Source: an uncultured Lachnospiraceae bacterium (lineage in GTDB: Bacteria; Bacillota; Clostridia; Lachnospirales; Lachnospiraceae). Taken from it: a DNA stretch of 38,808 bases. The first letter of the stretch is position 1, and every line of letters begins with the position of its first letter. Under the pieces are notes generated by a model that did not search any database, had not been told where the DNA came from, and saw nothing but the letters and a program-made list of their open reading frames with translations. The stretch lies in contig CANQPM010000028.1 in assembly GCA_947625775.1 (NCBI GenBank), forward strand, positions 1 through 38,808, written 5' to 3'. Of this stretch, positions 13,994-38,303 are shown one piece after another. A program made the translations under genes and the position numbers.

Positions 13994-15244
13994 TCATCTC
14001 TTTATTCTGTCAAAATGAAAAGACGGCATGTATTCATCATTAAAAAACTCTATATTTTTTACTCCCATACGCTCAAGCTGCTTTTCTATTTCCCTGTAGT
14101 AGATATTGCAGATAAATATGCCGCAGCCGTCGGGCACGGATTTAAGCGCTTCTGGCGGCTTTACCTCTAACCCGCAAAAGCTTGTGCCCCAGAGTGATTT
14201 ATTGTTGTCGCAGGTAAACAGCGGAGGATACTTTTCGCCGTAGCATTTCATATAATTCCTGCACATGTTTCCCGCGCCAAAAAGGGCTATGGAACTGTAT
14301 TTTTTCAGATGCGCTTCTATCTCAATCTGCCATTTAAAGTAATCTGCGACAGATTTAGCCAGCGATACGAGCTGCGGGCGCAGCAGCGGTGAAAAACCTG
14401 CCGCCGTGTCGGAAAAATCCATGATAAGCTGTCCGTCAAAGCTTATTTTTCTAAGACCTCTGATGAGTCCGAGCCAGTCCGTCTGAACCGAACCGTTGCT
14501 GACGCAGGTAAACGGTAGGAGCGACGCCTCGCTGTGACCGTCGCAATCGCGCAAAATCACAGCCTTTAGACGTGTGCCAAGCGCTGATGTAAATTCGTAC
14601 ATATCCTGTCCGCACAGATTGCTTATACCCGTGTCAAGGCAGAAGCCGAAGCGTTCTTCACCCGCTTCACTGTTTAGCCTGTCAATCCATTCTGCGGCAG
14701 CATATGCGTCTGAGCATATGCCGCGCACGAGGTGTCCGCTGACATTTCTGCATTGATTCTCCAACAAGATTGTTACCTGATTTTCTCTTGCTGTTTTTAC
14801 AAGCCCAAGAAAAAACTGCTTATTCGTTTCCCATATATCTGAAATACCGAAAAAAAGTGAACGGATGATAATATATCCGCACCCTGCCTGTCCACAGATT
14901 TTTATGCTCTCCTCCGCAAGCTGCCGCATTGTATTATTCAGGTTTGTACGTTTTGTATCCCGTAAAAGATATGGCGCGCGGGCAACTGGCATAGCCAAAC
15001 CGCTTTCTTTTGCCTTCGCAAGAAAATCGCCTATTTGCTCCTGCAGCAATCGCGGTTTTTCTACTATTTTTTCCGCCTTATGTGCACACAGATTCCTCTT
15101 TCCGAAATTTTCCAATATCCATGTCGGGCAGACCATCGAAAAGTCTAAAAATAACAGCTGAAAATCCGCATTTTTCATATCACGTATTCCCTGCCCCGGT
15201 CTTTCGATGTCACAGATTCCCTTGTGTGAACATAAAATCTGCAT
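13994..15244 (-). CDS. Degenerate TIM-barrel protein fused to Rossmann-like module
   Basis: Residues 25-305 are homologous to the neighbouring TIM-barrel isomerase, sharing matching blocks such as WIDRLN, GFCLDTG and QTDWLGLIRGLR. Metal positions are altered: FDTGHAN becomes LDTGISN, HIHDND becomes ILRDCDG, and the C-terminal SFETAP becomes DFSDTA, so two His and probably a Glu are lost. Residues 317-402 are the shared module, with IALFGAGNM, CDNNKSLWGTSFCGLEV and EIEKQLERMGV. A good ribosome binding site (AGGAG, 7 bases) supports ATG at 15244, and the start overlaps the upstream gene by 35 bases. This looks like a non-catalytic or re-purposed copy. It might bind the same sugar as its sister or serve as a partner subunit; both are inference. 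Confidence 0.75.
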   Translation of the reverse strand: MQILCSHKGICDIERPGQGIRDMKNADFQLLFLDFSMVCPTWILENFGKRNLCAHKAEKIVEKPRLLQEQIGDFLAKAKESGLAMPVARAPYLLRDTKRTNLNNTMRQLAEESIKICGQAGCGYIIIRSLFFGISDIWETNKQFFLGLVKTARENQVTILLENQCRNVSGHLVRGICSDAYAAAEWIDRLNSEAGEERFGFCLDTGISNLCGQDMYEFTSALGTRLKAVILRDCDGHSEASLLPFTCVSNGSVQTDWLGLIRGLRKISFDGQLIMDFSDTAAGFSPLLRPQLVSLAKSVADYFKWQIEIEAHLKKYSSIALFGAGNMCRNYMKCYGEKYPPLFTCDNNKSLWGTSFCGLEVKPPEALKSVPDGCGIFICNIYYREIEKQLERMGVKNIEFFNDEYMPSFHFDRIKR

Positions 15245-17495
15245 CCTTTTTCTCCTCTTCTTTTTCTTCCTGTCTTTGTTCCAACTGTACTTTTAATTTT
15301 GTAGAGCTTACCTTTTCCGTATATGGAAAAAACACAATGTCTGCCCCATTCCTCCGCAGAAATTCCTGATCAGCCTGCCAGCCGATATTGTCTCCATGAT
15401 CATCGCCTGAGAACATGCAGTCAAATTGAAACAGCTTATACGCATCACGGATGCCGCCGTAATCAACGGGCAATGCCTCGACCAGATCCGTATACCTGCA
15501 GGATTTTAAAACCTCCACACGGTCATCACAGGGAATCACGGGATACTTGTTTTTTTGCCTGTATGCCAATTCATCCGGCACTACGCCGACAATCAGGTAA
15601 TCACATTGCTCTTTTGCCCGACGAAGAATATTGACATGCCCGACATGAAACATGTCAAATACGCCTGCTACGTAGCCGATGTGGTATTTTTTTTGTTCAC
15701 TATTTTTCCGTTCAGGATCTGAAGCAGCCGCGGGACGGCTGATTGCATAGGATTTACCCGAATCGTAAACCGCATAATTTTTTATCCCCATTTCCTCAAG
15801 CTGCTTGATTACAGACAGATAATTCTTAATGCAGACTATTACCTTATAATTATCCTTCTGCAAATCTTTTAACATTTTCGGGGACTGTATGAGTATTCCC
15901 TCTACCTCCTGTCCCCATCTGCCCTCACTATTATCAACAACCGCAGTTATTGGATAGTATCTGCCGTACATAACGATAAACCGCTGTGCAAATCTTCCCG
16001 AACCAAATAGAATCAATTTTCTGCCGTTTATGTTTTTAAAGATATCCGTAAAAATTCTTTGATATTCATTTTCTGAGTAATTCATGCGCTGACGGTTTAC
16101 GTTAATAATCTCAACATTCCGCCTCAGCCTTTCATGGTAAATGCGCAGCGGCTCTTCATTGCGTAACTTCACAAGGAAATCCCATTCCATCCGTTGCAAA
16201 TTTTCACGGTTTTTATTTAATCCATAACGTTCAAAAAGCACTGTTTCTGGCATAATTTTACGAAATTCCGCATTACCGGAATAAAATGTCGCAATTATTC
16301 GCATGATGATCGCATCCGCAGGATAATATTCCTCACAAAACTCCTGATCGTAAAAAACAAACTTCCCGTCTATGTAAAAACTGTTTAACGGCACCATATC
16401 CAAGTAGCCTTTTTGAAGTATGATTCCGTTTTCACCGTCTGATTCTGCAATTTCGGATGATTGCAGAATCAAATCCCTGAATTTATCCATCTCATTTAAA
16501 AATCGCTGCCTGTCTGTGTACAAAAGACGTTTTAAATACAGCTGGCCTGTTTCTGCATCCATATATGGCATAACATAAATGCCGTCTTTTATTTCCGCAT
16601 CAACAACAGCAATGCCATGCTGCTTCAAGTCTTCATTATGTTTGACAAGCTGTTTTAAACGTTCTTTTCCCGTTTCACTGACCGCATGTTTTTCAACAGA
16701 ACCGTTTTCTCTTATAACCGTAAGCAGCGCATTTTTCGGACCGCGTTCCATGGAGCTTGTTACATGCAGAACATCTGAAAATTTCCCGTTCAGCGGACAC
16801 TCAATCAGATATGCATTTGCCATCGCATGAAACATTCCATTGGCAATCAGTGTGCCGTACAATGTTTCTTCTTCCAGAAAAACCGTATCCGGATAATTAT
16901 ATGTCGGGAAAATGCGGTTTGACAGATCTTCATTTGGAAGATAATCTTCAGCATAAATAAGGCTGGGATTATTCAGGTCTGTCAGCACAGAATAAAACTT
17001 ATGATGGATAAAATGCGAGCTTTCAAGCATTGCTTCTATCTCCTGCTTCGCATATGTCCTGCCGCGAAAATCATCTTCTTCGCGCATATATGCCCTGCGG
17101 TAGTTCTCAACGCCGTCGAAGTTGCGCCCCGTATACGGATCGCGGTCGCCGCAGAAATAACGCAGTCCTATGCGGTTATTCATTCCCAAAAGCAAAGTTC
17201 CAGATGGCTTCAACAGAATATGGAATATTTCAAGCAGATTTTCCAGCACGGCTTCCTGTTCCAGTTTCTCTATGCATACGATATAATCAAATAAGCTCAA
17301 CCAGCTTTGCTGCCAGGACTTTTCGTAAAGCTGCTCGCAATTTACAGAAACTAATATTAAATTTTCTTCAAAAATAAGTTCTGCTAATGCGTCTGATTCA
17401 TCGCCTATGTATAATACTTTTGAATTTCTCTTAAACCTGTACCATTTGAGTAAACCTTTTTGTATTCCTCGTATTAGATTTTCTGTATCTTCCAT
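15210..17495 (-). CDS. Methyltransferase-like / kinase-like / Rossmann module / cytidylyltransferase fusion
   Basis: A 761-residue four-part protein. Residues about 25-190 resemble a class I SAM methyltransferase (KVLYIGDES, DYIVCIEKLEQ). About 225-410 resemble a kinase-like fold with YLDMVPLN and YDQEF in the places of a catalytic loop and metal Asp. About 490-580 are the shared module (LILFGSGRFAQ, VDNSEGRWGQ, VIKQLEEMGI). About 605-735 are a nucleotidyltransferase of the TagD / ethanolamine-phosphate cytidylyltransferase family, with GVFDMFHVGH (HxGH), FSGDDHGDN and SSTKLK. The last domain would activate an alcohol or polyol phosphate with CTP. The C-terminus is a charged, glutamate-rich tail. 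ATG at 17495 has GGAGG 6 bases upstream and is preferred over one at 17519. The order suggests a CDP-linked substituent is made and handled by one polypeptide. Confidence 0.8.
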   Translation of the reverse strand: MEDTENLIRGIQKGLLKWYRFKRNSKVLYIGDESDALAELIFEENLILVSVNCEQLYEKSWQQSWLSLFDYIVCIEKLEQEAVLENLLEIFHILLKPSGTLLLGMNNRIGLRYFCGDRDPYTGRNFDGVENYRRAYMREEDDFRGRTYAKQEIEAMLESSHFIHHKFYSVLTDLNNPSLIYAEDYLPNEDLSNRIFPTYNYPDTVFLEEETLYGTLIANGMFHAMANAYLIECPLNGKFSDVLHVTSSMERGPKNALLTVIRENGSVEKHAVSETGKERLKQLVKHNEDLKQHGIAVVDAEIKDGIYVMPYMDAETGQLYLKRLLYTDRQRFLNEMDKFRDLILQSSEIAESDGENGIILQKGYLDMVPLNSFYIDGKFVFYDQEFCEEYYPADAIIMRIIATFYSGNAEFRKIMPETVLFERYGLNKNRENLQRMEWDFLVKLRNEEPLRIYHERLRRNVEIINVNRQRMNYSENEYQRIFTDIFKNINGRKLILFGSGRFAQRFIVMYGRYYPITAVVDNSEGRWGQEVEGILIQSPKMLKDLQKDNYKVIVCIKNYLSVIKQLEEMGIKNYAVYDSGKSYAISRPAAASDPERKNSEQKKYHIGYVAGVFDMFHVGHVNILRRAKEQCDYLIVGVVPDELAYRQKNKYPVIPCDDRVEVLKSCRYTDLVEALPVDYGGIRDAYKLFQFDCMFSGDDHGDNIGWQADQEFLRRNGADIVFFPYTEKVSSTKLKVQLEQRQEEKEEEKKDADFMFTQGNL

Positions 17496-17509
17496 AATGG
17501 TCCTCCATA

Positions 17510-18835
17510 TCACCAACATACAATCCGTCCATTGCTTACGCCAAGTGCAAGGAGCTGCTCTTTCATATCCTTCTTATATTTCCTGCTGGTAATAACATAC
17601 AACGCATCGGGCATTTCGCTCACCGCTTTCTCAGGTTTCCACACTTCACAGCCATCAATTTTATTACCGATAAGTCTTTCTGCATTATCTGCAGCCCCTA
17701 TAAACGGCAGCCCCATAGATACCATATATGCGAAAAGCCTTTTTCCCCTTCCAAGACACCCAAACAGAACAACGCCATTTTCTTCTTTTGCCACGCGCTG
17801 CAATATTTCCCATAACTTCTTATGTTGTGCTTCTTCTGCACATGAAGCTTCATCAATATGCCTTGCCGATTCCTCCTCATTCCACTCTATCATGCCTTCT
17901 GCCATACCGCGAAAACCGCAAAGCCTATACTTTTCTATCATTCCCCGATCTTTCTCCAGCTCTGCCCTATATCTTTTGAAAAGCCTGTTTCTGTTTTCAC
18001 CTTTTAGATTCAGATACGCCATATTTCCGAAAAAATCCTGATATTTCCATTGAAGAGCCTCATGCCATACCCATTCATCTGTTATTCCTCTTCTGTGCAG
18101 CTCATTCCATAAATAATCGTGCTCATCTGCTATCACGACTGTCTTTGTGGAATCATGCATCGACGAGCCCGGGTTATCCGTCCTATACCAATACAATGCC
18201 TGATCCAGATGATACATCCGTTTTGCCAATACACTTATCAGAAACCGAAAAGACATATCCTGATAGGAAGCTCCCGGCGATTCATTCATTATTATGCCTT
18301 CACTTATTAGAAAACTCTTCTTGAAAAGTCCTGTCCAATACCGTGAAATCAGCAACGGAATCCTGCTGCTTAAATCATTTTCTATTACTTTATTGTACTC
18401 ATCAGGTCCATACATATGAACAATACTGCTGCATCGACGGCTACCCATGTCAAAAAAAGAATAATAGTCTGCATTGACAAAATCGACATCTTCTTTTTCC
18501 ATAATTTTATACAAAACAGAAAGCATATTTGTATCATAAAAGTCATCCGCTTCCAGCACTGATATATATTCTCCATGTGCTTCCTGTATTCCACGGTTTA
18601 TTTTATGGCCATAACTTGTGTTTTTATCCTGTATTATTCGTACCCTGTTGTCTCTTACTGCATATGCTTCCAAAATTTCCGGTGTCTTATCCGTGCTTCC
18701 TCCATCTATGCACAAAATTTCCAGGTTTTCATAGGTCTGGTTTAACAGGCTGTCCATGCACTCACGTATGTATGGTTCGGAATTGTGTACGGTAACTATG
18801 GTTGAAATTAATTTTTTCAACGGATAATTTTGCAT
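17510..18835 (-). CDS. GT2 glycosyltransferase with C-terminal Rossmann-like module
   Basis: The N-terminal 230 residues are a family 2 GT-A glycosyltransferase: STIVTVHNSEPYIRECMDSL, ILCIDGGSTDKT, and the metal site VLEADDFYD. Such enzymes use nucleotide sugars with inversion. Residues about 353-441 are the shared module, here with a longer glycine turn (VVLFGCLGRGKR) then ADNAERLIGNKIDGCEVW and MKEQLLALGV. The protein is 441 residues, the same length and layout as the enzyme at 20191-21516, and the two are evident paralogues. GGAAG lies 9 bases before the ATG. No membrane segment is seen, so the enzyme should be cytoplasmic. Donor and acceptor are unknown. Confidence 0.87.
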   Translation of the reverse strand: MQNYPLKKLISTIVTVHNSEPYIRECMDSLLNQTYENLEILCIDGGSTDKTPEILEAYAVRDNRVRIIQDKNTSYGHKINRGIQEAHGEYISVLEADDFYDTNMLSVLYKIMEKEDVDFVNADYYSFFDMGSRRCSSIVHMYGPDEYNKVIENDLSSRIPLLISRYWTGLFKKSFLISEGIIMNESPGASYQDMSFRFLISVLAKRMYHLDQALYWYRTDNPGSSMHDSTKTVVIADEHDYLWNELHRRGITDEWVWHEALQWKYQDFFGNMAYLNLKGENRNRLFKRYRAELEKDRGMIEKYRLCGFRGMAEGMIEWNEEESARHIDEASCAEEAQHKKLWEILQRVAKEENGVVLFGCLGRGKRLFAYMVSMGLPFIGAADNAERLIGNKIDGCEVWKPEKAVSEMPDALYVITSRKYKKDMKEQLLALGVSNGRIVCW

Positions 18836-18904: not shown

Positions 18905-20158
18905 TCATTTGATACTATCTTTTTGACTCATCTGACAAACACCCTGCCTAATTGCAAATTTCTCTGGATGTTCCTGATAATATTGCATCATCCTTTTCTT
19001 TTGACATCCAAAAGCTAAATGTCCGGCAAGAACATTGAAAATCTCATAAATTGCCATGTCCTTTTCTCTATTATCCGCACAAATCCAACGTTCGTCCCCT
19101 CCCATTCCTGAGCCCTCATTATTGTCAGGCCATCCTCCCATCATAGCCCATCTTTCTCTCGTATACATAATGCATCCGATGTTATAATAACTGTCTAAAA
19201 CACTGTATCCCGTATTTTTCAAAAACCTCTCTGCCATATTATCAAATGAATCCATTGTATTCCAAAAATATTCCGCAGTTTCAACCACATCTTGTACTGC
19301 ACTATATCTGCTCCTATATGCTCTGCCAAAATTGCTTTCATATTCTTCTTTTTTCCCGATCAGTTTCAGATAAGAAACATATCCACAACAATTAAGTGGA
19401 ATTACAGGCACTGCAAACCCTATCCTATACTCTCCCTGTTCTTCTATATGCTGATATTGACTAATCATTTGTTTAAAAAAACCTTCACTGATAAAAATGT
19501 CTTCATCCATTTTAATAATATATTTTGCGTTGGGGTGTAATTGTAATACAAGATTTTGGATAAAGCATACCTGATTTCTGTCCGTATATAAATATGACCA
19601 GCCATTCTCTTTCGCAATACTTTCCAATTCTTTATCAAATATTCCAGAAGATACGATACAATAATCAAAGCTATCATCTTTAAAAAGTGATAACCTCTTC
19701 AAAGTATTATCCCATAATCCCCTTTCATATCCCGCAAGTATATAACACAAATTATTACTTCCACGGCTTCTATCAATGAAATGATATGGTATATCTGATT
19801 TTTTTGATTTGTAATCCCAGTTCAAGTCACGCAGATTATACACTCTTAATATATTGTATAGACTTAACTGCCGACAAATGGATTCTGCAAAATCCGTTGA
19901 AAGCAATACTATAAAATCGTCCTGTTTCATTTCTGCAAGCTCATATGGTCTTATTATAGGTATTCCCTCCCATTTATTCCAAAAAGTATATTTAAAGTTA
20001 TCTACTATGGCAATTATTTTATCATTCCCATATTCATTTTTAATCCATTGCGTAATTTCAGCTGTCTGCACTCCTATCCCCCATAAAACAATAGAAGTTT
20101 CCATCTTTTTTGTATTCTTTAAAGCTTTCAAATTTTCAATAATCACTGAATTACTCAT
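18905..20158 (-). CDS. Rossmann-like module fused to an unassigned GT-A-like glycosyltransferase
   Basis: Residues about 18-110 are the shared module: IVLWGIGVQTAE, AIVDNFKYTFWNKWEGIPI and SICRQLSLYNI. The rest (about 130-380) looks like a GT-A transferase not obviously in GT2: YIIKMDEDIFIS supplies a DED metal site, and GMGGDERWI resembles the acidic motif found late in such folds. Cysteine-rich NCCGYVSYLK lies between them. I chose ATG at 20158 because AGAGGA lies 7 bases upstream; a GTG at 20194 overlapping the previous stop as GTGA is possible and would add 12 residues. The gene belongs to the AT-rich middle of the run. Family assignment is tentative. Confidence 0.75.
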   Translation of the reverse strand: MSNSVIIENLKALKNTKKMETSIVLWGIGVQTAEITQWIKNEYGNDKIIAIVDNFKYTFWNKWEGIPIIRPYELAEMKQDDFIVLLSTDFAESICRQLSLYNILRVYNLRDLNWDYKSKKSDIPYHFIDRSRGSNNLCYILAGYERGLWDNTLKRLSLFKDDSFDYCIVSSGIFDKELESIAKENGWSYLYTDRNQVCFIQNLVLQLHPNAKYIIKMDEDIFISEGFFKQMISQYQHIEEQGEYRIGFAVPVIPLNCCGYVSYLKLIGKKEEYESNFGRAYRSRYSAVQDVVETAEYFWNTMDSFDNMAERFLKNTGYSVLDSYYNIGCIMYTRERWAMMGGWPDNNEGSGMGGDERWICADNREKDMAIYEIFNVLAGHLAFGCQKKRMMQYYQEHPEKFAIRQGVCQMSQKDSIK

Positions 20159-20190
20159 TGCCATTCCTCTGCTTTCATTCAATCTATTTT

Positions 20191-23009: not shown

Positions 23010-23930
23010 TTATTTTACGTACATTGCGGTTAATATAGCATAATTGGCTAAATGATATCCTTCATCAACCATTATTTTATGAATTTTAGTATTTAATATT
23101 TCATCTATTGATTTTTTATTCAAAATTTCAACCAAAACACATTTAGGGCTATACTTTTTCCAATCAAAAGACATAATTATTTTTTCGTCCATTCCTTCAA
23201 CATCAATGTCTAAAAAATCTATGTTGTGCATATTATTTTCTTCTAATATTTGATTTAATGTTTTTATCGGAACTTTCCTTACTTCCTTTAATTTTAGACC
23301 ATGGGAATCAAAAATATCCTTGTCAAATGTAGACTCGCTTAACGCGCTGCTCACCAAAAAATCTATCTCTCCTTCTACATCCGAAACTCCGCAATTAATA
23401 TTTATGTCCTCTGGTCTAAATTTTTCAAATAACTTTATACATTCAGCATTCGCATCTATATTTATGCCACGCCATCCTGCATCATAGGCCCATCTTGAAT
23501 TTGACAGAAAAAAAGGATGAAATGCCCCAACATCAACATAAGTTCCTTTATAATCCATCGGATAAGAACTAAAATATGACTTCAGCCATAACTCCTCCCC
23601 ACACTGTGAATTTATAGCTTTATTCCAATAATCTTCATATAATACCATTCCAAATTTTCTATTGTATAGCCTTTCAACAAAAGATTCCAAACTGTCATCC
23701 ATTAGTTGCATATACATTTCATTCAGATATACACTTGCAATAATAATTCTTTCACTATTTTTATCAAAAATCATCTTGAATTTGTTGTATGAAATTATCG
23801 GCAATTCAAAGCATAACGTATTAACTTTGCTTTCATCATTATCAATAAAACCACATATATTCATCTGACTATTATAGATTTCATAAAATTCTCTTCCAAA
23901 TTTACCCGCTCCAAATATCCAATATTTCAT
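23010..23930 (-). CDS. Rossmann-like module fused to FkbM-family methyltransferase
   Basis: The protein begins directly with the module (YWIFGAGKFGREFY, GFIDNDESK, followed by a helix near MQLMDDS). Residues about 125-300 are an FkbM-type SAM-dependent methyltransferase: TYVDVGAFHPFF is the SAM-binding glycine loop, GINIDANAECIKLFEKF the next acidic strand, and IDFLDIDVEGMDEKI the family's signature. FkbM enzymes usually O-methylate sugar or polyketide hydroxyls, so this probably methylates a glycan residue. ATG at 23930 has GGAGG 8 bases upstream; the longer reading from 23990 has no ribosome binding site and would add an unrelated 20 residues. The 133-base spacer before it shows no terminator. 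Confidence 0.87.
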   Translation of the reverse strand: MKYWIFGAGKFGREFYEIYNSQMNICGFIDNDESKVNTLCFELPIISYNKFKMIFDKNSERIIIASVYLNEMYMQLMDDSLESFVERLYNRKFGMVLYEDYWNKAINSQCGEELWLKSYFSSYPMDYKGTYVDVGAFHPFFLSNSRWAYDAGWRGINIDANAECIKLFEKFRPEDININCGVSDVEGEIDFLVSSALSESTFDKDIFDSHGLKLKEVRKVPIKTLNQILEENNMHNIDFLDIDVEGMDEKIIMSFDWKKYSPKCVLVEILNKKSIDEILNTKIHKIMVDEGYHLANYAILTAMYVK

Positions 23931-24063
23931 CCTTGTAACCTCCACATATAATTTCATATTTCCATAATTAAACACATCAATCCAAATCAAACCTTTGTTT
24001 GCCTCTAATCTCCATTATGCGACAAAAATAAGCTTAAAATCATATGCGCCTACCTCTCAGTTT

Positions 24064-29427: not shown

Positions 29428-29916
29428 TTAAAGCATTTGCCTCTTCATCCATTCGATAAATTCCCTGACCGCTCCTTTTCCGCCTTTAGTCTTCGTTACA
29501 TAATCCGCAACTGTCTTTATCTCCTCTGCTGCATCACTCGGACAGCCGCTTAATCCCACTAAAGACATACACTCATAATCATTCATGTCATCTCCAATAT
29601 ATGCCGTTTCTTCTATACCGATCTGTTCTGTTACAAGCGCCTTTTTCAAATCCGCAACCTTATCAACGCTCCCCTGCACAATCCGTGTAATCCCCAGCTC
29701 ATCACATCTCATCTGTACAATCTTTGAGTTTTTTCCTGTAATGATAATTGGAATGATTCCCATCTGCGGCAAAATATGCTTAATTGCATATCCATCCTTC
29801 ACATGAAACATCTTCATTTCTTCCCCGTCATTGCCTAAATAAATTGCCCCGTCTGTCAATGTCCCATCCACATCCATCACTAGCGCCTTTATTTTCATCA
29901 TTCTCTCAGCTTTCAT
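29428..29916 (-). CDS. kdsC: KdsC-type 3-deoxy-octulosonate 8-phosphate phosphatase
   Basis: A small capless HAD phosphatase of 162 residues. Motif I is VMDVDGTLTDGAIY, followed by the KdsC-typical FHVKDGYAIK, motif II in IIITGKNS, and motif IV in YIGDDMNDYECM. KdsC removes the 8-phosphate from Kdo-8-phosphate, the step before CMP activation. Its start overlaps the preceding GT32 gene's stop as ATGA. It is separated from kdsD, kdsA and the CMP-sugar synthetase by one glycosyltransferase gene, but all lie on one strand. Without the Kdo neighbours a related KdsC-like nonulosonate phosphatase would be an alternative. Confidence 0.88.
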   Translation of the reverse strand: MKAERMMKIKALVMDVDGTLTDGAIYLGNDGEEMKMFHVKDGYAIKHILPQMGIIPIIITGKNSKIVQMRCDELGITRIVQGSVDKVADLKKALVTEQIGIEETAYIGDDMNDYECMSLVGLSGCPSDAAEEIKTVADYVTKTKGGKGAVREFIEWMKRQML

Positions 29917-31013
29917 CCAAATAAATCTTGAAATAATTCCTGTGCTTCTTTAATACTTGCATGCCATTCTTTAGATGTCCAGGAACCATCATAATGGTGT
30001 ATCATAAATGTATTTTTTGTTGGCATTATCCTTCCCGTCCAATTACATTTTGCAGACAGTACTTTTTCGGGATAGATTGTCACATCGTCAATCACCTGAT
30101 AATTTCCATCATTTATGTATCCTTTTTTTTGAAAAATATCTTTTTGCAATGTCGGAATTGCGGTTAGATCGTAACTTCCATCATCTTTGATAAACTTTCT
30201 TTTTTCATATATATCCCGCAATTCTTTTATGATTGGATTATGAATTAGTGAACCAAATCCCAATCCTAAATTAATTAATCTACTACTCTCTACACCCATA
30301 AAAGCTTTTTGGTAGAGCAGATCATCTATACTGCGTATAACCTCAACATCCGTATCGAGATAAATCCCGCCTTCATTATAAACAATATCCAATCTCGCAT
30401 AATCAGAAACAAAACTCCACTTTTGAGCCTGATACGCTTCATACATATACTGGTTTTTGGTCACATCATAATTACTCTCATCCCACCTAATAATTTCATA
30501 ATCGGGACAGTACTTCTTCCAGCTTTCCATCCACATCAGATTCCTATCTGGGATTTTTTTGCCGCCAAACCAGCAATAATGAAGTTTTTTAGGAATAAGT
30601 GGTTTTTCCGTAAGTTTGTAATTATTAGGATACCAACGGTTTTCCTCCTCGCAACGGTTTGTTTCGCTTCTGATATATCCCACAAAATAACATATCGTAT
30701 TTTGCATTTGCTCATATGCATTGAGCTGTTTCACAATTGGCATAACATCAGCACAAGAGATCAAAATAATTACATTTTTCATTTGTTTTAATTGTTCAAC
30801 ACATATAACAGGAAACGAATATTCTTTATACCTCCACTCTGTTCCAACTTTTTTTCCGTCATTATCTGCGATATAGTCAATCATTGATAAAATTTGTTTT
30901 TCCTCATATGCTTCAACAAAAGATCTTAACATCTTTCCTGCTCCTATACATACAAGCTTCTTTCCTTTAACTTCTTCACAAAATTGACTAATTGTTCCAT
31001 TTACAATTTTCAT
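29913..31013 (-). CDS. Rossmann-like module fused to GT32-like glycosyltransferase
   Basis: Module at residues about 18-115 (LVCIGAGKMLRSFVEAYE, IADNDGKKVGTEW) with a slightly longer insertion than in its paralogue at 25287-26360. The transferase half begins IPKKLHYCWFGGKKIPDRN and has EIIRWDESNYDV and GGIYLDTDVEVI with the DxD site. I chose ATG at 31013, giving 366 residues, because the sequence from there (MKIVNG...) lines up with the paralogue's start (MVRIVNS...); a TTG at 31088 would add 25 unaligned residues. It lies between kdsC and kdsD and may attach a sugar to or next to the Kdo-like residue. Confidence 0.87.
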   Translation of the reverse strand: MKIVNGTISQFCEEVKGKKLVCIGAGKMLRSFVEAYEEKQILSMIDYIADNDGKKVGTEWRYKEYSFPVICVEQLKQMKNVIILISCADVMPIVKQLNAYEQMQNTICYFVGYIRSETNRCEEENRWYPNNYKLTEKPLIPKKLHYCWFGGKKIPDRNLMWMESWKKYCPDYEIIRWDESNYDVTKNQYMYEAYQAQKWSFVSDYARLDIVYNEGGIYLDTDVEVIRSIDDLLYQKAFMGVESSRLINLGLGFGSLIHNPIIKELRDIYEKRKFIKDDGSYDLTAIPTLQKDIFQKKGYINDGNYQVIDDVTIYPEKVLSAKCNWTGRIMPTKNTFMIHHYDGSWTSKEWHASIKEAQELFQDLFG

Positions 31014-31084
31014 AACAATACCGTATCCCCCGTCGATAGCATATGTGCATTTAGTTTTTCTAACAGAGCACTCCTTCCGAATAC

Positions 31085-31180
31085 TCAATTCTCATATACC
31101 TGTATCTGCTTTAATATCGTTTCCGACCACATGAATGCAATACGGATTGCATCCTCCTCATAGGTCAATCTCATATGCAT
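31085..31180 (-). CDS. Possible 31-residue small protein or gene remnant
   Basis: In the spacer between kdsD and the GT32 gene, an open frame of 31 codons starts at ATG 31180 with AGGTGA 6 bases upstream and ends at TGA 31087-31085. Its product opens MHMRLTYEEDAIRIAF, has a believable helical pattern with acidic and hydrophobic residues, and ends QIQVYEN. I do not recognise it. It could be a true small protein, a short leader, or the end of a decayed gene. Nothing in the sequence gives a function. Confidence 0.3.
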   Translation of the reverse strand: MHMRLTYEEDAIRIAFMWSETILKQIQVYEN

Positions 31181-31219
31181 TTTCAATCACCTAATTATTA
31201 TTTTGCTGCTCTTACACCA

Positions 31220-32182
31220 TCAGCCCACGATACCTGCATTTAAAATCGCTTGCACATTAATCGTACCAATAGGTTTATCATTATAAACTACAGGCATTGA
31301 AAATATGCTATTGCGCTTCATAATGTTTAATGCCTCAACCGCCAGTTTACCTTTCTCAATTACTTTTGGGGTTTTTGTCATTACTTCTGATACCTTCTTA
31401 CTGTATATGTTTACTCCCGCTTTTAACTGTCGCCCCAAGTCGCCTGTCGTAATAACTCCTTTAATATTACCATTACTATCTATAACAGTAACTAAACCAA
31501 GCTTTTTTAATACTAACTCTGAAATAACGTCATTCAACTTAGCACTAATGTCTATTATCGCATTATCCTCACCTGTCGCCATAATGTCCTCTACCTTATA
31601 TATCAGCTTTTTTCCCAACGCACCTGCAGGATGAAATTTGCCAAAATCCACATCATTAAAGCCATATATTTCACTTGCAACTACTGCCAATGCATCTCCA
31701 TAACAAAGCTCTACTGTTGTGCTTGATGTGGGTGCCAGCCCCAAATGACACGCCTCCTGGAATTTTGGAAGTACTTGGGATATATCCGAATATTTTGCTA
31801 ATGTTGACTCACAATTCCCTGTTATTGAAATAATCTTCGCCCCAATTAACTTTATTCCAGGAATAATTTCAACAATCTCACTGCTTTCTCCGCTATAGCT
31901 TATTATTACAACAATATCCACAGAAGAAATCATTCCCAGATCCCCATGCATAGCCTCCGCCGGGTCTAAATAGAACGAAGATGTTCCTAAACTTGAAAGA
32001 GTAGCTGCTATTTTTTTTGCTATATGCCCTGGTTTTCCCATACCTGTAAGTATAACTTTTCCCTTACAATTCACAATTTCTTCAACTATTCTTTCAAATG
32101 TCCCATCTAATGCATCTCTAGTTGCCTCAAGTGCTTTAATCTCGGTGTCAAACACTTTTTTGGCATCAAGTATTATACTCAT
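31220..32182 (-). CDS. kdsD: Arabinose-5-phosphate isomerase
   Basis: Converts ribulose 5-phosphate to arabinose 5-phosphate, the precursor of Kdo. A SIS domain occupies about residues 30-190 (ILTGMGKPGHIAKKIAATLS, ISYSGESSEIVEIIP, LAPTSSTTVELCYGDALAV), followed by GKFHPAGALGKKL and two CBS repeats (about 205-320). This KpsF/KdsD layout and the 320-residue length are standard. AGGGGA precedes ATG at 32182. It sits 14 bases downstream of kdsA, clearly in one unit. This enzyme is uncommon in Gram-positive bacteria, which usually have no need for arabinose 5-phosphate. Confidence 0.94.
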   Translation of the reverse strand: MSIILDAKKVFDTEIKALEATRDALDGTFERIVEEIVNCKGKVILTGMGKPGHIAKKIAATLSSLGTSSFYLDPAEAMHGDLGMISSVDIVVIISYSGESSEIVEIIPGIKLIGAKIISITGNCESTLAKYSDISQVLPKFQEACHLGLAPTSSTTVELCYGDALAVVASEIYGFNDVDFGKFHPAGALGKKLIYKVEDIMATGEDNAIIDISAKLNDVISELVLKKLGLVTVIDSNGNIKGVITTGDLGRQLKAGVNIYSKKVSEVMTKTPKVIEKGKLAVEALNIMKRNSIFSMPVVYNDKPIGTINVQAILNAGIVG

Positions 32183-32196
32183 AACACACTTGTCCC

Positions 32197-32973
32197 CTAA
32201 TGAACCGCGTCATATACATTAATTATTCTTCTCAGCATATCTTCGAAACCATCCAGCCTGACCATATTCGGACCATCAGATAATGCCTCGTTCGGCTTTG
32301 GATGTACTTCGAAAAACAATGCATCTGCACCAACTGCTATTGCTGCCTTTGCAAGCGGTTCTGCATATTCTCTATTGCCGCTTGTTGATGTCCCATTACC
32401 TCCGGGTTTTTGCACACTATGTGTTGCATCCATCACAACAGGGTAGCCTAACTTTTTCATCTCAACTAAACCAGTCATATCAACGACAAGTGTATTATAA
32501 CCAAACGAAGTTCCTCTCTCACATAGCATTATATTATTATTGCCTGCTTTAACTAATTTTTCTGTTACGTTTTTCATATCCCATGGCGCCATAAACTGAG
32601 CCTTTTTCACATTAATAATTTTTCCCGTTCTCGCAGCAGCAACTAAAAGATCGGTTTGCCTGCATAGAAAAGCCGGTATTTGAATTATATCTGCTACCTG
32701 TGCTGCTATCTCCGCCTGCCACGGTTCATGAATATCAGTAGCAATCTTTACGCCATATGTTTCTTTTACTCTTTTTAAAATCTTAATTCCTTTTTCAATT
32801 CCAGGTCCTCTAAACGATGTTATGCTTGTACGATTTGCTTTGTCAAAAGATGCTTTAAAATAATACTCCAATTCAAGTCTTTCGGATATCTCTTTCATTT
32901 TTGCTGCTATTATATTCACATTCTCTTCTGACTCAATAACACATGGACCAGCTATCAAAGTAAATCTTTTCAT
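32197..32973 (-). CDS. kdsA: 3-deoxy-D-manno-octulosonate 8-phosphate synthase
   Basis: Condenses phosphoenolpyruvate with arabinose 5-phosphate to give Kdo-8-phosphate. Conserved stretches: [40 protein letters not shown], and [11 protein letters not shown]. Cys11 in [10 protein letters not shown], the His in MDATHSVQ, the Glu in FFEVHP and the Asp in LSDGPN match the four ligands of the metal-dependent class of this enzyme, unlike the metal-free Escherichia coli form, which has Asn in place of the Cys. 258 residues, slightly shorter than average. Its ATG overlaps the synthetase stop as ATGA. Confidence 0.95.
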
Positions 32974-33617
32974 AGGTTCTTTCCCTCTATTAATTTACAA
33001 GCTAATTCATAATCCTCTTTTTCATCTATATCAATGGCTTCTATTCCTGATACTTCCTGGATATATGGAGCAAACCCAATTCTTCTGTGGTATTTGGTAA
33101 ATATTTCTTTTTTAAAAATAAAAAATGCGCTTGTTTCTACCCATATAGGCTCCATATCCTGAGTACGCGGCACATCATTTAAATTATAGTTGATAGGAAC
33201 GCCTTTGTACCATGCGAAGGTCTGAATACGCTCTGCCGAGAAAGCCGAATCATACTCACCACTAAGCACATGCGCCAATGAGTTTTTAATGCTTGTTCCT
33301 TTAATAAATGGCGAAGTAGTATGTGCTAATACATAAATGTCCGCATCAATCTGCTCTACAAAACTTTCATATATATCAAGCCCCTTTACTAAATCACCAT
33401 CAAATTTTTTGTCCCTTTTTAAAAACTTAACCTTACAAGGCAAATATTCCCTTACACGTTCATCACTGCAAAATACATATACATCATCTATTTCATTAAT
33501 ATTCACTAGCGTATTACTTATATGCCAACATAGAGGATGTCCCGCAATAGGCAGTATATTTTTATTGGGGAGTCTTTGCGAATTTAATTTAATCGGTATC
33601 AAAGCTACGGTTTTCAT
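32970..33617 (-). CDS. CMP-sugar synthetase (NeuA/KdsB-like cytidylyltransferase)
   Basis: A 215-residue nucleotidyltransferase that activates a 2-keto-3-deoxy sugar acid with CTP. The CTP loop reads [17 protein letters not shown], followed by GHPLCWH, then [10 protein letters not shown] and an [13 protein letters not shown]-terminal motif. The P-N-K-N ending of the loop is nearer to acylneuraminate synthetases than to classic KdsB (usually LPGKxL), yet the neighbours kdsA, kdsD and kdsC point to Kdo or a Kdo derivative as substrate. Start ATG at 33617 is preferred over a TTG at 33620. It is coupled to kdsA and lies 30 bases from a gene for a putative CMP-sugar transferase. Confidence 0.87.
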
Positions 33618-33647
33618 CAATACACTCTTTCACCCTTTCCGCAAATA

Positions 33648-34892
33648 CTATCTTTTATTTTTGTTTGTGTCAAAAATTTCTTCAAAATTTACTCTTTCAA
33701 ACACATCCAAATGCCCACCACGCGTTGCATTATATATTTTTATATTATAGACATCCGCATATCTTTTTGCTGCAATATATGCATTATATGTTTCTCCCTT
33801 ATATTTCATAAAATCCCTCACAATATTATCATCCATGTAATTCTTACAAAAATGCGTATCTTTTCCATCTTCTCCCCATGAAAAATCCACTCCTAAAAGA
33901 TATATCTCCTTAAATCCCATATACACAGCCATCTGTAACATGACATACATCACTGTCCGCCCTGCATATACCCCATTTGAAAAATCATCCGAAAAATCCG
34001 GATACCCTGATTGATACCTTTTGTCAAACATTCTAAATACATTTGCCGAACCATTATCTTTTTTTATGTCTATTCCAAAAAAATCCTTTACGAAAACAGT
34101 AAAATCACAGTTACTAATTTCCTCTGTAACCTCTCTATACATGTTTTCATCTATAACAACATAATAATCAGGTTTCCAGTGAGTATTTGGAAACATCAAA
34201 TATATTCTATTGCATCCAATAGAAATCATATCATGTGAGGCAATCTTATCTAAATCCGATGGAAGTAAACTCGGACCATTTCCTATCAAAAAACATTTTT
34301 CACCCATATGAATATTTTTGTACTTTAAAAGCGGCAAATACCTACTTTCAGCTTTATGTGCTATATCAGACCAAAAATTTATAACTTTGCAGTTCCCACA
34401 CAACAGCTCGTCCAAATCACTGTTTTCTTTCATATTTATTATCACATCAGAAACCGCGCAACAGCCCGCATTTATATGCAAAATATTTTTAAACGAGCAA
34501 TTACTGTTTACCTTTTTTAATTCTGCCATTAATGTATCTGATATAGGATTGCCAAATAATATTGCAAACGAATCATATTGTGTCAAATTCCACATTTCAA
34601 TCATTTCTTGGCATGAGAAAAAGCCTGCACCTATATATGGGCATTCGAAATAATTGTTCACATTGTTAGCCTCAAGCTGACTAACAATTTCCCTACTTGC
34701 AGTAAAAGCAGTAATGATAACCGTTTCGCCAGTCCACTTGCTTAAAAAATCATCAAAGCTGATAACTCCAATACCCTCATACAGAGTTCCAACCTTCCTA
34801 TCATTATTATCAATTATGGCAATTACATTTTCTTTTCCAAAGAAGCGTAATGCCGCGTAACAATTTAAGCTTGCTCCAAAAAAGTAGTACAT
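33648..34892 (-). CDS. Rossmann-like module fused to DUF115/GT42-like transferase
   Basis: Residues 1-90 are a divergent copy of the module (YYFFGASLNCYAALRFF, AIIDNNDRKVGTLYEGIGV, IVSQLEANNVN). From about 195 the protein has CFLIGNGPSLLPSDLDKI, a later SNGVYAGRTVMYV, and GFKEIYLLGVDFSW, which correspond in order and spacing to motifs of Maf/DUF115 proteins and of GT42 sialyltransferases. Both groups use CMP-linked sugar acids. Placed directly before the CMP-sugar synthetase and Kdo genes, it is the best candidate for the enzyme that transfers the Kdo-like sugar. AAGGAG lies about 5 bases before ATG at 34892. 414 residues. Whether the acceptor is protein or glycan is unknown. Confidence 0.75.
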   Translation of the reverse strand: MYYFFGASLNCYAALRFFGKENVIAIIDNNDRKVGTLYEGIGVISFDDFLSKWTGETVIITAFTASREIVSQLEANNVNNYFECPYIGAGFFSCQEMIEMWNLTQYDSFAILFGNPISDTLMAELKKVNSNCSFKNILHINAGCCAVSDVIINMKENSDLDELLCGNCKVINFWSDIAHKAESRYLPLLKYKNIHMGEKCFLIGNGPSLLPSDLDKIASHDMISIGCNRIYLMFPNTHWKPDYYVVIDENMYREVTEEISNCDFTVFVKDFFGIDIKKDNGSANVFRMFDKRYQSGYPDFSDDFSNGVYAGRTVMYVMLQMAVYMGFKEIYLLGVDFSWGEDGKDTHFCKNYMDDNIVRDFMKYKGETYNAYIAAKRYADVYNIKIYNATRGGHLDVFERVNFEEIFDTNKNKR

Positions 34893-34908
34893 ATTGCTCC
34901 TTTAAACT

Positions 34909-34983: not shown

Positions 34984-34995
34984 TGCTCCCTAAAA

Positions 34996-36147
34996 TCATT
35001 GCACCCCAGCCACCACTAAACTTTCATTATCACTCCCGCATCCACCACAATACCTGCAGAGCGATATACTCCCATTTTCAACAAATCCCAAATCATGCGA
35101 TAACAGCTTCTTCCTTTCCGCAGGGCTTTTTATCTCCTCCAAATCTACAAAATCAGCCTTATCCTCTTTCAGCAGTCCTGCCTGTACCGCACTCCATACT
35201 ATATGGCAGTAATAAAATTTCTTATCATTCAACCCTCTAAACACAGGATTGCAGCACAGCATATGCTCCCTCGCAGACTCAAAACTCACTTTCTGCTTCT
35301 CCTCAGGAAAGAAAAAATTCTTCCATTTCATCTCTTTATTAATTTCAAATTCAATGCCGCTGTTCTCTAATTCATCTTCAAATCTTTTTAATTTTTCATC
35401 ATACGGAACGCTCGCCGTATAGTCGCTGATGCTTATTTTAGCGCCTGTTTCTTTCAGCACTTTTATAAGCCTTTCCTGAACCGGCACTGTACCATTAGTA
35501 ACAATAACAATCTGACCTACACGGCTCCCGTATTCTTTATGCAGCCAGTCCAGCATCTGCGGCAGCTCCCTATTGAGCAGCGGCTCACCACCCAGGATTG
35601 ATACCTTATAGCAGTAATTTACACTCCTAAATAGAGCATTAAAATTCTCCCTAAACTCTTCCATACCGATATTTCTTCTTCTGCTGTCCGCATAATGGTT
35701 AATAAACATATTGCAGTTTTTGCAGTTTAAAGAACAGTATGTCGTTACTGCCGTATGAACATCCAAAAGATGTATTTCACCCTTTTTGCGCCAGTAGTAC
35801 ATAGAAACAAACATATGCATATCAATAAAGTCTATGTTTTCCACATACCCGGCATTTTTTAGCTGTTCTGCTATCTCACTGTAATGAGCCGACACAAGGA
35901 TTTTCTTTTTTACGCCATTTTGTGAAATATTTTCTTTCAGGAACTTTGAAGCAGCTTTTATCTGAATGCCTCCAAAGTATGTATTGTCCAGTGCATCATT
36001 ATTATCCAGTACGGCTTCTATATGTATATCATCCGCTATTACTGCAAGATAAGCCCTTGCACGGATTGTGTACGGCATTACTATATACCCTTTTTCATTT
36101 TCCCAATACTTTTCAAATAATTCTTCTAATTCCTGTATAGTCTGCAT
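34996..36147 (-). CDS. Degenerate Rossmann-like module fused to radical SAM enzyme
   Basis: Residues about 18-108 keep the second half of the shared module (AVLDNNDALDNTYFGGIQI, IAEQLKNAGY) but the glycine turn is replaced by YIVMPYTIRARA. The rest is a radical SAM enzyme: TTYCSLNCKNCNMF gives CxxxCxxC, followed by SILGGEPLLN and VTNGT. Additional Cys residues near the C-terminus (MLCCNPVF, YYCHIVW, LCRYCGGC) could bind an auxiliary cluster as in SPASM-type enzymes. ATG at 36147 has GGGAG 5 bases upstream and starts 2 bases after the previous gene's TGA. It could catalyse an unusual sugar or peptide modification, such as epimerisation or cross-linking. Confidence 0.8.
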   Translation of the reverse strand: MQTIQELEELFEKYWENEKGYIVMPYTIRARAYLAVIADDIHIEAVLDNNDALDNTYFGGIQIKAASKFLKENISQNGVKKKILVSAHYSEIAEQLKNAGYVENIDFIDMHMFVSMYYWRKKGEIHLLDVHTAVTTYCSLNCKNCNMFINHYADSRRRNIGMEEFRENFNALFRSVNYCYKVSILGGEPLLNRELPQMLDWLHKEYGSRVGQIVIVTNGTVPVQERLIKVLKETGAKISISDYTASVPYDEKLKRFEDELENSGIEFEINKEMKWKNFFFPEEKQKVSFESAREHMLCCNPVFRGLNDKKFYYCHIVWSAVQAGLLKEDKADFVDLEEIKSPAERKKLLSHDLGFVENGSISLCRYCGGCGSDNESLVVAGVQ

Positions 36148-36149
36148 CT

Positions 36150-38303
36150 TCACTCCCATATAGGCACTTCTTTATTATTCAGTATGCCATTATCATAATA
36201 AAAACTTTTTTTCATTTTATCCGACGGCTCAAAGCCTCCGTCCATAAAACAGCCAAACAAATCCTCCGCAAAGCCTGTATCATTGCATAAGTCATCAAAA
36301 GCTATTTTCTCCTGTATATCTGCCATTTCACGCATAAACTCAAATATGCCCTCCTGCATTTCCAGCCTTATGTCAAAAGCCTTCTGGTTTGACATCGGCG
36401 CGGCATATTTTGCATTGGCATCTTGATCCATAAAAATCAGCATCCCATTCGGACTTGTAAAAAAAGCTTCTATGAAATTTGAATTTTTCCATACTTTAGA
36501 CTGCTTTCCTGTCGTGTCTTCTTTGTTTTGGAAGCATCCTTTCATGTTTTGACGGCGGCAGCATTTATTATCATTGTCAAGGCATGCACAGAAATAATAT
36601 CCGTTCATTTTTTGTTTCATTATCTTTCCCAGATAATATTGTGTGTTGCCATACAGCAGTGAATCAACTACTCCTATTTTCGGCATCAGTCCAAGCTTGG
36701 ATATGTATTTCAGATACCCTGCCCTTTCTTCCGATGCCTTACGGTATATCTCGTCTGCATACTTACCCAGTGCTTTTTCCAGTGTGTCCCTGTCTTTTTG
36801 TATGTCAATAACCGCTGTTGTAAGTGTTTCTTCATCTTCACTTTCCACCCTGAACCTGTCATGCAGAAATCCTGACAGATTGCCTGTGTATGGAAACATC
36901 GCTGCTTCATATATATCATCTTTCACTTCAATGGCGGCATTTATTACTGCCCTTCTGGAAATTTCCATATATACAGCTTTGGGGAATTTACTCCCTTTCA
37001 AAAGAGAACACATATATCTGTATTGTTCAATAAGCAGATATCCTTCACGGGCAAAAAATACTATCTCCTCAACCCCGTCCGAAACAGAGTTCTTCATCAT
37101 CCAGTACATAAATGAACAGCATAAGCTTCCCAAAAGACAATACCCGGCTTCTTTTTCATCATTAAATTTTACCCCTCTCCCAGTATTTGCGAAGGGATTA
37201 TTAAAGATTTTTACAGCAGTCATCCCTGCAGCCAGCGAAGCATATAAGCTGTTGACCTGCGGCAGGATCTCCCTCAAAGATGAATTTGCCATCATTTCGC
37301 CTGCACTTCTGATAAAATATGTGTCTATGCCGTATTCTTTTGGACGCATACAGTCACTTTTTTCATTATCGCCTATATGCAGGGCATTTCTTCCTTTAAC
37401 CACGTTCTGCCTGTAAAATTCCCACAGGCTTCCGTCTTCTTTGCTCCTTTTGCAGTCACATGATACGATGATCCTGCTGCTGTCTATATCCAAGCCATTA
37501 TAATGAAGTATCTTTTTTATATAATCCGCCGTATAATACATATCGCTTACAAGCCACACTTCTTTTTCCTGCATCAGTTCCCTGCACAGCTCTGTCATAA
37601 CATTTCTTGCGGAAATAAGCTTAAAATCCGTTTCCAATTCACATTGCTTTACTTTTTCCGTCAATGAAACATCCCATCCTGTCATCTCCCGTATTTTGGA
37701 ATATATTTCATCTATGTTTGGATTGTCTGATAATGCTGCGGCTTTTCTGCGTATCTCCGCAAAGTTAATGTCTGTATCGGCAAATCCTTTTATTTTTTTA
37801 TCAACTAATCCAAATATGTCTGACGGAAGATATATTTTTCTCATTATTAATGTATCAAAAACATCAAATGATATAACGTCATACTTCTCAGCCTTCTGCC
37901 TTAACTCATCATATGATTTGTTGAAATATTCATCTGCCGCCCTGTTTTCTTTCTCACTTTGTGCCGCTAACATGCCATTTCTGAAATATATTGGAATATT
38001 CCAGTCCTTGATACGGTTATATATTGTCCTCCAGTAATTTTCTGCCGTGTTTATGACTATCATGTCGGCATTTCTTTCAGCGGCTTCCCTGCTTATTATT
38101 TCAACACCATATTGGCTGCTGCCTATAAGAGCTTCTTCTCTGTCCAACAAGCCTACTATGTTGAAACCCTTTATCCTGCCAAGCAGCGTAGCGGTCATTC
38201 GCCCTGTACCGTATATGGCTATCCTTTTATCCCGCTTACCATCAAAAGCCTGTTCAAATTCTTCTATTTCGTAATCAAATTTCGTCTTTCCGTTGTCTGC
38301 CAT
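36150..38303 (-). CDS. Rossmann-like module fused to large HAD-type hydrolase-like protein
   Basis: A 717-residue protein. The module is near residues 25-115 (IAIYGTGRMTATLLGRI, GLLDREEALIGSSQYGVEI). Next is a HAD domain (about 130-340) with VISFDVFDTLIMR as motif I, WLVSDMYYTADYI as motif II, and LHIGDNEKSDCMRP as motif IV, typical of large predicted HAD hydrolases found in polysaccharide loci (COG5610-like). The remaining 370 residues are unassigned, with EEIVFFAREGYLL. ATG at 38303 has AGGGTGG 8 bases upstream; a GTG at 38315 is less likely. It is the first gene of the run, with a terminator for the preceding gene just upstream. Its chemistry is unknown. Confidence 0.75.
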   Translation of the reverse strand: MADNGKTKFDYEIEEFEQAFDGKRDKRIAIYGTGRMTATLLGRIKGFNIVGLLDREEALIGSSQYGVEIISREAAERNADMIVINTAENYWRTIYNRIKDWNIPIYFRNGMLAAQSEKENRAADEYFNKSYDELRQKAEKYDVISFDVFDTLIMRKIYLPSDIFGLVDKKIKGFADTDINFAEIRRKAAALSDNPNIDEIYSKIREMTGWDVSLTEKVKQCELETDFKLISARNVMTELCRELMQEKEVWLVSDMYYTADYIKKILHYNGLDIDSSRIIVSCDCKRSKEDGSLWEFYRQNVVKGRNALHIGDNEKSDCMRPKEYGIDTYFIRSAGEMMANSSLREILPQVNSLYASLAAGMTAVKIFNNPFANTGRGVKFNDEKEAGYCLLGSLCCSFMYWMMKNSVSDGVEEIVFFAREGYLLIEQYRYMCSLLKGSKFPKAVYMEISRRAVINAAIEVKDDIYEAAMFPYTGNLSGFLHDRFRVESEDEETLTTAVIDIQKDRDTLEKALGKYADEIYRKASEERAGYLKYISKLGLMPKIGVVDSLLYGNTQYYLGKIMKQKMNGYYFCACLDNDNKCCRRQNMKGCFQNKEDTTGKQSKVWKNSNFIEAFFTSPNGMLIFMDQDANAKYAAPMSNQKAFDIRLEMQEGIFEFMREMADIQEKIAFDDLCNDTGFAEDLFGCFMDGGFEPSDKMKKSFYYDNGILNNKEVPIWE

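Follow-up and report, generated by a model that had tools for sequence, protein, structure and literature searches.

A small domain of about 90 residues, called the module below, is fused to 15 of the 20 genes of a minus-strand run (13025 to 38315) in an uncultured Lachnospiraceae bacterium, and it probably gathers enzymes that decorate the flagellum. The run lies on contig 28 of a 3.75 Mb genome, and the whole stretch of 38,808 nucleotides that we analysed is referred to as the window; a 118-residue open reading frame (ORF) at 38455-38808, which runs off the contig end, lies outside the count of 20 genes. This reading is suggested because genomes with several copies of the module encode flagella and because the module also exists as a stand-alone protein. 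In its full form the explanation, to which we give about an even chance on sequence comparisons, is that the module would be a non-catalytic adaptor of cytosolic flagellin glycosylation, acting in cis when fused to an enzyme or in trans when supplied separately.

The 15 modules in the window (P1 to P15, numbered from the lower coordinate) are homologous. Profiles built each time from the other 14 modules recovered 14 of the 15 at E < 1e-3 and the remaining one, P10, at E = 0.0077 (13.8 bits). Among 3000 shuffled decoys the top score was 13.4 bits across all 15 runs and 9.1 bits in the run for P10, which rules out a chance resemblance of Rossmann loops. A sequence-only reading of this DNA had placed one module on 15 of 20 glycan enzymes and named five genes as lacking it (a TIM barrel at 13025 and four enzymes of the 3-deoxy-D-manno-oct-2-ulosonic acid (Kdo) pathway); the places, the count and the five exceptions were all borne out. 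The partner families that it named held to a large extent, with GT2 (P3, P5, P8 and P10), GT4 (P6), Gly_transf_sug (P9 and P12), FkbM (P7), MptE-like (P13), radical SAM (P14), TIM barrel (P1) and cytidylyltransferase (P2) all above the Pfam cut-offs, but its HAD assignment for P15 was weak (E = 4e-4 on NCBIfam DREG-2, well short of the cut-off). The methyltransferase of P11, barely above its Pfam cut-off (22.3 versus 21.2 bits), was missing from its list. Comparison with Pfam, a check that it had proposed, placed no window protein above a cut-off across the module region.

An Asp after the second strand is present in 15 of 15 window modules, just as that reading had claimed. Its GxGxxG signature stood only in part: GxG occurs in 12 of the 15 modules, the exact GxGxxG in only four (P5, P7, P8 and P10), and the glycine loop is lost in P14 and altered in P3 and P13. 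The first Gly is preceded by an aromatic residue in 13 of the 15, more often than the third Gly is kept. Across 617 distinct modules (weighted frequencies), this aromatic residue (96%), the first Gly (98%) and the second Gly (93%) are among the strongest positions, and the column after strand 2 holds Asp in 79% and Val in 15%. The Val in this column (profile column 30) was seen in 78 of the 617 modules, 73 of which retain GxG, and in 26 of 86 modules of the GT2 group; it possibly reflects an alignment shift, a different ligand or no ligand. An AlphaFold2 model of one module, that of P5, built on a 110-row alignment (95 of 160 non-redundant modules from named loci plus the 15 from the window), had a predicted local distance difference test score (pLDDT) of 92.7 and a predicted template modelling score (pTM) of 0.85, and displayed a Rossmann topology with the order E-H-E-E-H-E-H-E, in agreement with the Rossmann-like fold first proposed.

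Genomes with several modules consistently encode flagellin. Among 298 genomes of the same family (280 genera), flagellin was found in all 64 with at least two module matches (E ≤ 1e-8) and in 89 of the other 234 (p = 8e-23); these module counts are lower bounds, scoring having been limited to 17 candidates per genome. With at least one match the figures are 86 of 98 versus 67 of 200, and all 17 carriers of a P2-family protein have flagellin versus 136 of the 281 others (p = 1e-5). The presence of LicD, used as a glycan control, displayed no such link (100 of 184 versus 53 of 114; p = 0.19). The association is also positional: in 11 of 40 genomes a flagellin gene was found no more than 20 kb from the best module (P = 1e-6), 1.84 being expected from flagellin counts; this expectation is approximate, as the flagellin counts are lower bounds for some genomes. 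No flagellin was found in 10 LicD neighbourhoods. The 40 genomes were taken, roughly in place-list order, from 62 genomes of other genera with at least two matches; an eligible genome outside the 40 (G150) has flagellin 9 kb from a module by eye. Flagellin also lies near several modules in the named loci L132, L142, L149 and L151, and in a phylum-wide sample modules and flagellin lie on one contig within about 16 kb of each other (by eye) in G389, G420, G495, G519 and G629. In the window's own genome, 11 matches to flagellin were found. Flagellin is probably the common acceptor and would also be that of the window locus.

The enzymes that carry the module differ in kind from those beside them that do not. 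The 51 named loci that have three or more module genes contain 327 module genes and 98 interleaved module-less genes of at least 150 residues, 97 of which were analysed after one antisense ORF was left out. A random 125 of 272 module-bearing partners (43 P2-type and 12 short ones having been left out beforehand) gave, among the 25 of 32 Pfam families listed, GT2 (35), TIM barrel (14), GT4 (7), RgpF (6), LicD (6), WbsX (5), glycerophosphotransferase (4), radical SAM (4) and also methyltransferases, not every member necessarily matching a family. The 97 module-less genes gave epimerases (12), nucleotidyltransferases (9), GT2 (9), IspD (5) and SIS (3) among the 25 of 86 families listed. Epimerases (12 versus at most one module-bearing; p = 3e-4, allowing for one hidden match on the module side) and nucleotidyltransferases (9 versus at most one; p = 0.006) are enriched on the module-less side, and GT2 on the module-bearing side (35 of 125 versus 9 of 97; p = 6e-4). 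Glycosyltransferases and further transferases make up most of the families on the module-bearing side. These counts support a lean of the module towards acceptor-side enzymes over precursor makers. The split between the two drawn in the sequence-only reading thus survives as a tendency, sugar-nucleotide enzymes being enriched among module-less genes, but it is not clean, given the module-less GT2 proteins and the exceptions P1 and P2. Among flank genes of the named loci (a random 145 of 220) the commonest family was that of TIM-barrel proteins (20 of 145). Of the GT2 matches in the window's own genome, all four on the window contig carry the module and none of the 32 elsewhere does, so the module belongs to the locus and not to the enzyme family; a role as a needed part of GT2 catalysis is ruled out by the same count.

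The module was also detected on its own. In 34 loci we found 47 short proteins (< 200 residues) that have the module without a recognised enzyme part, 35 of which match over their full length a family of about 158 residues that combines the module with a hydrophobic N-terminal segment and a region containing a conserved Trp (e.g. L060 10560-11075, with further members in L074, L078, L085, L086, L093, L097, L115 and others). A hydrophobic N-terminus (19-residue mean of at least 1.5) is present in 33 of the 47 versus 20 of 855 module enzymes of at least 200 residues. The own genome encodes one stand-alone module protein (C11:25559-26032), and the profile of the family also matches the P8 module (E = 1.1e-13). 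Of 12 aligned stand-alone members, 11 no longer have the second Gly of the loop. The neighbours of stand-alone modules are module-less in 45 of 75 counted cases; across module runs as a whole this holds for 288 of 1089 genes (p = 2e-10). Among the 25 of 29 families listed for these 45 genes, glycosyltransferases predominate (GT4, 14; GT2, 12; WbsX, 2; GT11, 2), together with methyltransferases, single cases of LicD, GT8, a polysialyltransferase and a pyruvyltransferase, and one each of radical SAM, sulfatase, Epimerase_2 and aldo-keto reductase. It looks as if the stand-alone module would be supplied in trans to transferases that have none in cis. Unusual conservation of the stand-alone family was ruled out, as its within-genus pairwise module identity (56%) lies between those of P2-type (48%) and P1-type (75%) modules.

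The module is widespread in the genus and is inherited with its enzymes. At E ≤ 1e-3 the profile gave 28 places for the own genome, and for 23 further genomes of the genus it gave between 2 and 53 apiece. In 16 genomes of the order that belong to other families the number was 0 to 3 each, perhaps with a Rex-like match included. An iterated profile yielded 293 matches in 40 loci plus the window and 353 in 80 named loci, some with none. Named relatives are mostly Lachnospiraceae; multi-module carriers also include Selenomonadaceae (e.g. Anaerovibrio sp. RM50, L142) and, as outliers, Paenibacillus arenosi (L162) and an Accumulibacter bin (L156). When 330 modules were sorted into 58 groups by the similarity of the non-module part, the end bearing the module was largely fixed per group (C-terminal in 93 of 93 GT2, N-terminal in 12 of 14 GT4 and in 8 of 8 GT32-like proteins), and the closest module of another locus had a homologous partner in 235 of the 330 cases, 42.5 being expected. 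Modules on unrelated enzymes scored 11.61 bits within a locus versus 11.73 between loci. Recent shuffling within a locus is ruled out, as modules track the enzyme family, and so is a locus-specific docking code, as modules of one locus have no extra likeness. With inheritance along with the enzyme and no within-locus likeness, a locus-specific lock-and-key is unlikely; the target or ligand is likely to be a common, conserved one. Each enzyme family would have acquired the module once or on a few occasions. Two modules occur in single proteins of same-genus loci (L076 5104-8580, L076 8626-11442, L089 17440-19254 and L073 9432-11669); one of the four is of the P2 type and has an additional module and, by eye, a glycosyltransferase-like tail.

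The setting of the window locus appears cytosolic. A hydropathy scan found no membrane segment in the 20 window genes and Pfam revealed no flippase or polymerase among them, which makes a carrier-bound glycan, one of the shared ligands proposed in the sequence-only reading, unlikely here. Among the 327 module proteins of the 51 named loci, none is predicted to have two or more membrane segments, and 4 of 101 interleaved genes have at least four. Models of the KdsA, KdsC and KdsD type score above their cut-offs in the window. The cytidylyltransferase at 32970-33620 stays below cut-off on both the PseF-like and the KdsB-like model but scores higher on the former, so that the activated sugar may not be Kdo itself. 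P13 contains an MptE-like domain (pfam01973; 64.0 bits versus a cut-off of 34.6), and genes for supply of a cytidine monophosphate (CMP)-linked sugar (CMP-nonulosonate or CMP-Kdo) co-occur in the window with a Maf-type transferase. According to one report (PMC11339370), flagellin is modified in Escherichia coli by a Clostridium Maf, which attaches Kdo or sialic acid, and CMP-Kdo can serve a Maf as substrate on flagellin; the same report names the central Maf domain MptE-like and describes, in the Magnetospirillum magneticum Maf of known structure, an N-terminal degenerate Rossmann-like domain whose function is unclear. Kdo may be the flagellin-linked sugar here. P13 resembles the Maf flagellin glycosyltransferases in holding this domain above cut-off, but reaches only 24.1 of 670 bits on the full-length family FlagModPseD (NF050051), and no chain named Maf was present among the 25 Protein Data Bank sequences matched by the module profile.

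Starting from the observed homology and single fold of the modules, their range of partners, the acceptor-side bias, the phyletic and positional association with flagellin and the stand-alone form with its neighbours, we would picture the system as follows. The module would sit mainly on acceptor-side enzymes of cytosolic flagellin O-glycosylation islands, would take no part in catalysis and would bring each transferase or modifying enzyme to a shared target, most likely unexported flagellin or otherwise a complex formed on it. The stand-alone module, usually with a hydrophobic N-terminus and often encoded beside transferases that have none in cis, would be supplied in trans at the membrane, perhaps near flagellar export. 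A common target suits the lack of within-locus likeness better than a locus-specific code, and a shared acceptor or assembly fits better than a donor nucleotide because most precursor enzymes and the other GT2 proteins of the own genome lack the module. As most modules keep the glycine loop and the Asp, a bound nucleotide may coexist with docking, and the retained residues may still bind one.

Several observations weigh against the adaptor explanation and its flagellin target. Twelve genomes with one module match have no flagellin, and the genomes compared share ancestry, so that the p-values overstate independence. Higher copy numbers of LicD also lean to flagellin (at least two copies, 57 of 93, p = 0.02), and clearly so from three copies upwards (33 of 44, p = 9e-4). 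In the phylum sample flagellin is present in all 16 genomes with at least two matches, but with 248 of 299 genomes positive overall, presence is uninformative there. No flagellin was found on the window contig or in the examined stretches of the own-genome module clusters C11 and C12, and eight of the 11 own flagellin matches (those listed with a place) are on other contigs. Modules are borne by 30 of the 75 neighbours of stand-alone proteins. The TIM-barrel protein P1 and the cytidylyltransferase P2 have a module although they resemble enzymes that act on small molecules, and it is retained in their relatives aligned or listed. Four distant P2-relative loci, one a partial P2 match (L148) and three 26-29% identical to P2 (L152, L155 and L165), have no module in the examined stretch. 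Finally, GxG and Asp are conserved beyond what a pure docking surface would need.

This last point leads to an alternative that we consider unlikely, namely that the module is a ligand sensor, which would bind a nucleotide such as nicotinamide adenine dinucleotide (NAD(H)), uridine diphosphate (UDP), CMP or a nucleotide sugar and gate its enzyme, the whole set answering to one metabolite in the manner of Rex and PglD-type domains. Besides the frequencies of the first Gly, second Gly and Asp given above, the PglD_N, Rex, VioB and 4rv9 relatives listed next speak for it. In a comparison of the 110 diverse modules with Pfam (E ≤ 0.01), PglD_N was the commonest match (33), followed by C2185-like_N (15), CoA_binding (8) and Methyltransf_14 (7). 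Among solved structures the profile matched 3nkl, named UDP-D-quinovosamine 4-dehydrogenase (1.4e-11), Rex (6.6e-11), the VioB acetyltransferase (3e-4), WbaP (2e-3), the C-methyltransferase 4rv9 (0.023) and, weakly, the FkbM protein 2py6 (0.034). The sensor alternative fits less well with the 32 GT2 matches elsewhere in the own genome that have no module, with the mostly module-less precursor enzymes, which would most need feedback, and with the loops altered in P3, P13 and P14 or deprived of the second Gly in nearly all aligned stand-alone members.

Less probable still is that the loci make an ordinary lipid-linked surface polysaccharide, the flagellin link being indirect because motile lineages happen to carry them. 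GT2, GT4, WbsX, LicD, RgpF and glycerophosphotransferase proteins are typical of cell-surface glycans, and all are found on modules; the window contig without flagellin and the lean of higher LicD copy number to flagellin point the same way. Against this stand the window set with no predicted membrane protein, the rarity of interleaved genes with at least four membrane segments, and the co-occurrence in 64 of 64 genomes and positional association with flagellin, of which LicD presence displays none. A generic oligomerisation or stability domain, gained several times and with no system-specific partner, would agree with the frequent dimerisation of Rossmann domains and with the four two-module proteins, but is very doubtful given the module-free GT2 proteins outside the locus, inheritance with the enzyme in place of shuffling, and a stand-alone form beside module-less transferases.

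As to its relatives, the favoured explanation takes the module to be a small Rossmann-fold domain related to PglD_N, to the C-terminal domain of sugar C-methyltransferases and to Rex. PglD_N (PF17836), like the N-domain of TIGR03570 (NeuD-PglB-VioB), has a glycine loop and an Asp after strand 2, as in the module, and TIGR03570 matches P5 (2.4e-5) and P7 (1.2e-5). However, the best window protein on PglD_N (P7) reaches 20.1 bits versus a gathering cut-off of 23.4, and acetyltransferases are not among the window partners, which are transferases and other enzymes. C2185-like_N (PF22674) gave a best module match of 1.6e-9 and matched P11 weakly; a functional description of it was not found in the literature searched, nor was a paper on the Rossmann-like domain of WbaP. 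Methyltransf_14 (best module match 2.9e-7; e.g. 4rv9) has the same C-terminal placement as the module on the window GT2 proteins, but as a C-terminal domain it belongs to one enzyme family, the sugar C-methyltransferases. Rex is defined by a winged-helix DNA-binding domain together with a CoA_binding domain; the module shares the sequence match, but its window partners are enzymes of other families with no winged helix. A 214-residue protein of the own genome (L063 9267-9908), Rex by eye, was matched by the profile at 7e-7. Rex-sized frames are probably false positives of the module profile and call for caution with weak matches.

Dockerin-cohesin pairs and polyketide docking domains likewise have a small module on unrelated enzymes and a stand-alone form, but no repeat scaffold protein was seen here, and docking by the present module is our proposal. 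Neither the Rossmann fold nor the idea of flagellin glycosylation islands is new. What appears to be new is one accessory module that is shared by dozens of unrelated enzyme groups, is linked to flagellin and has a stand-alone form, as the module was described nowhere in the literature searched, which mostly excluded subscription journals.

More broadly, and tentatively, at somewhat less than an even chance, an interchangeable docking module, either fused to enzymes of dozens of unrelated groups or provided in trans by a small membrane-anchored protein, may build, in Lachnospiraceae and Selenomonadaceae, a factory for flagellin glycosylation located at the membrane, which new enzymes would join by gaining the module. 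If so, the presence of the module would predict which enzymes act on flagellin. Flagellin glycosylation enzymes are difficult to spot, given their likeness to those of capsules; should the module be their mark, a single profile could separate flagellum-directed from surface-polysaccharide transferases in many gut bacteria, and the module would offer a route by which glycan pathways acquire new enzymes. The proposal also makes testable how a set of soluble transferases could work on the same flagellin before export.

Within the window, where all genes of the run are on the minus strand, the module is C-terminal on the TIM-barrel protein P1 (AP_endonuc_2; module 14027..14302, with FGAGNMC and TCDNN; gene 13994-15244) and on the GT2 proteins P3 (17513..17785; gene 17510-18835), P5 (20200..20469; gene 20191-21585), P8 (24073..24339; gene 24064-25233) and P10 (26456..26746; gene 26444-27622). 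In P2 it is internal, before the cytidylyltransferase domain (15747..16028; gene 15210-17519), and the first 490 residues are methyltransferase-like and kinase-like (both by eye), so that a single protein unites a methyltransferase-like part, a kinase-like part, the module and a cytidylyltransferase. It is N-terminal on P4 (19835..20101; gene 18905-20194), on the GT4 protein P6 (22661..22918; gene 21509-22933), on the FkbM methyltransferase P7 (23652..23933; gene 23010-23990), on the Gly_transf_sug proteins P9 (26037..26309; gene 25287-26360) and P12 (30672..30968; gene 29913-31088), which we take to be GT32-like, and on the methyltransferase-like protein P11 (29059..29310; gene 27757-29310). 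The same placement is found in the MptE-like (Maf/DUF115) transferase P13 (34620..34892; gene 33648-34892), the radical SAM protein P14 (35836..36099; gene 34996-36159) and the weakly HAD-like protein P15 (37986..38234; gene 36150-38315). P4 has no convincing family match, and comparison of P1 and P4 with NCBIfam yielded no name.

The module-less genes comprise the TIM-barrel protein at 13025..13978 and the Kdo pathway span (29428..33620), which adjoins P13 and consists of KdsC (29428-29916), KdsD (31220-32182), KdsA (32197-32973) and the KdsB/PseF-like cytidylyltransferase (32970-33620), with P12 between KdsC and KdsD. A P1-type TIM-barrel gene adjoins a P2-type gene in the window and in L065, L068, L070, L073, L075, L076, L080, L089 and L091. 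The own genome has a second module cluster (C12; L061 3174-18047), which includes module proteins of the MptE-like (one), GT8 (one) and methyltransferase (two) kinds, a module-less GT4 protein of 651 residues that gives an MptE-like match below threshold, and ORFs of 123-151 residues that alternate with the module genes. Beside the window locus, on the plus strand (9130-13035), lies a gene for a large sensor-like protein that contains, by eye, a GGDEF-like stretch, a histidine kinase and a receiver.

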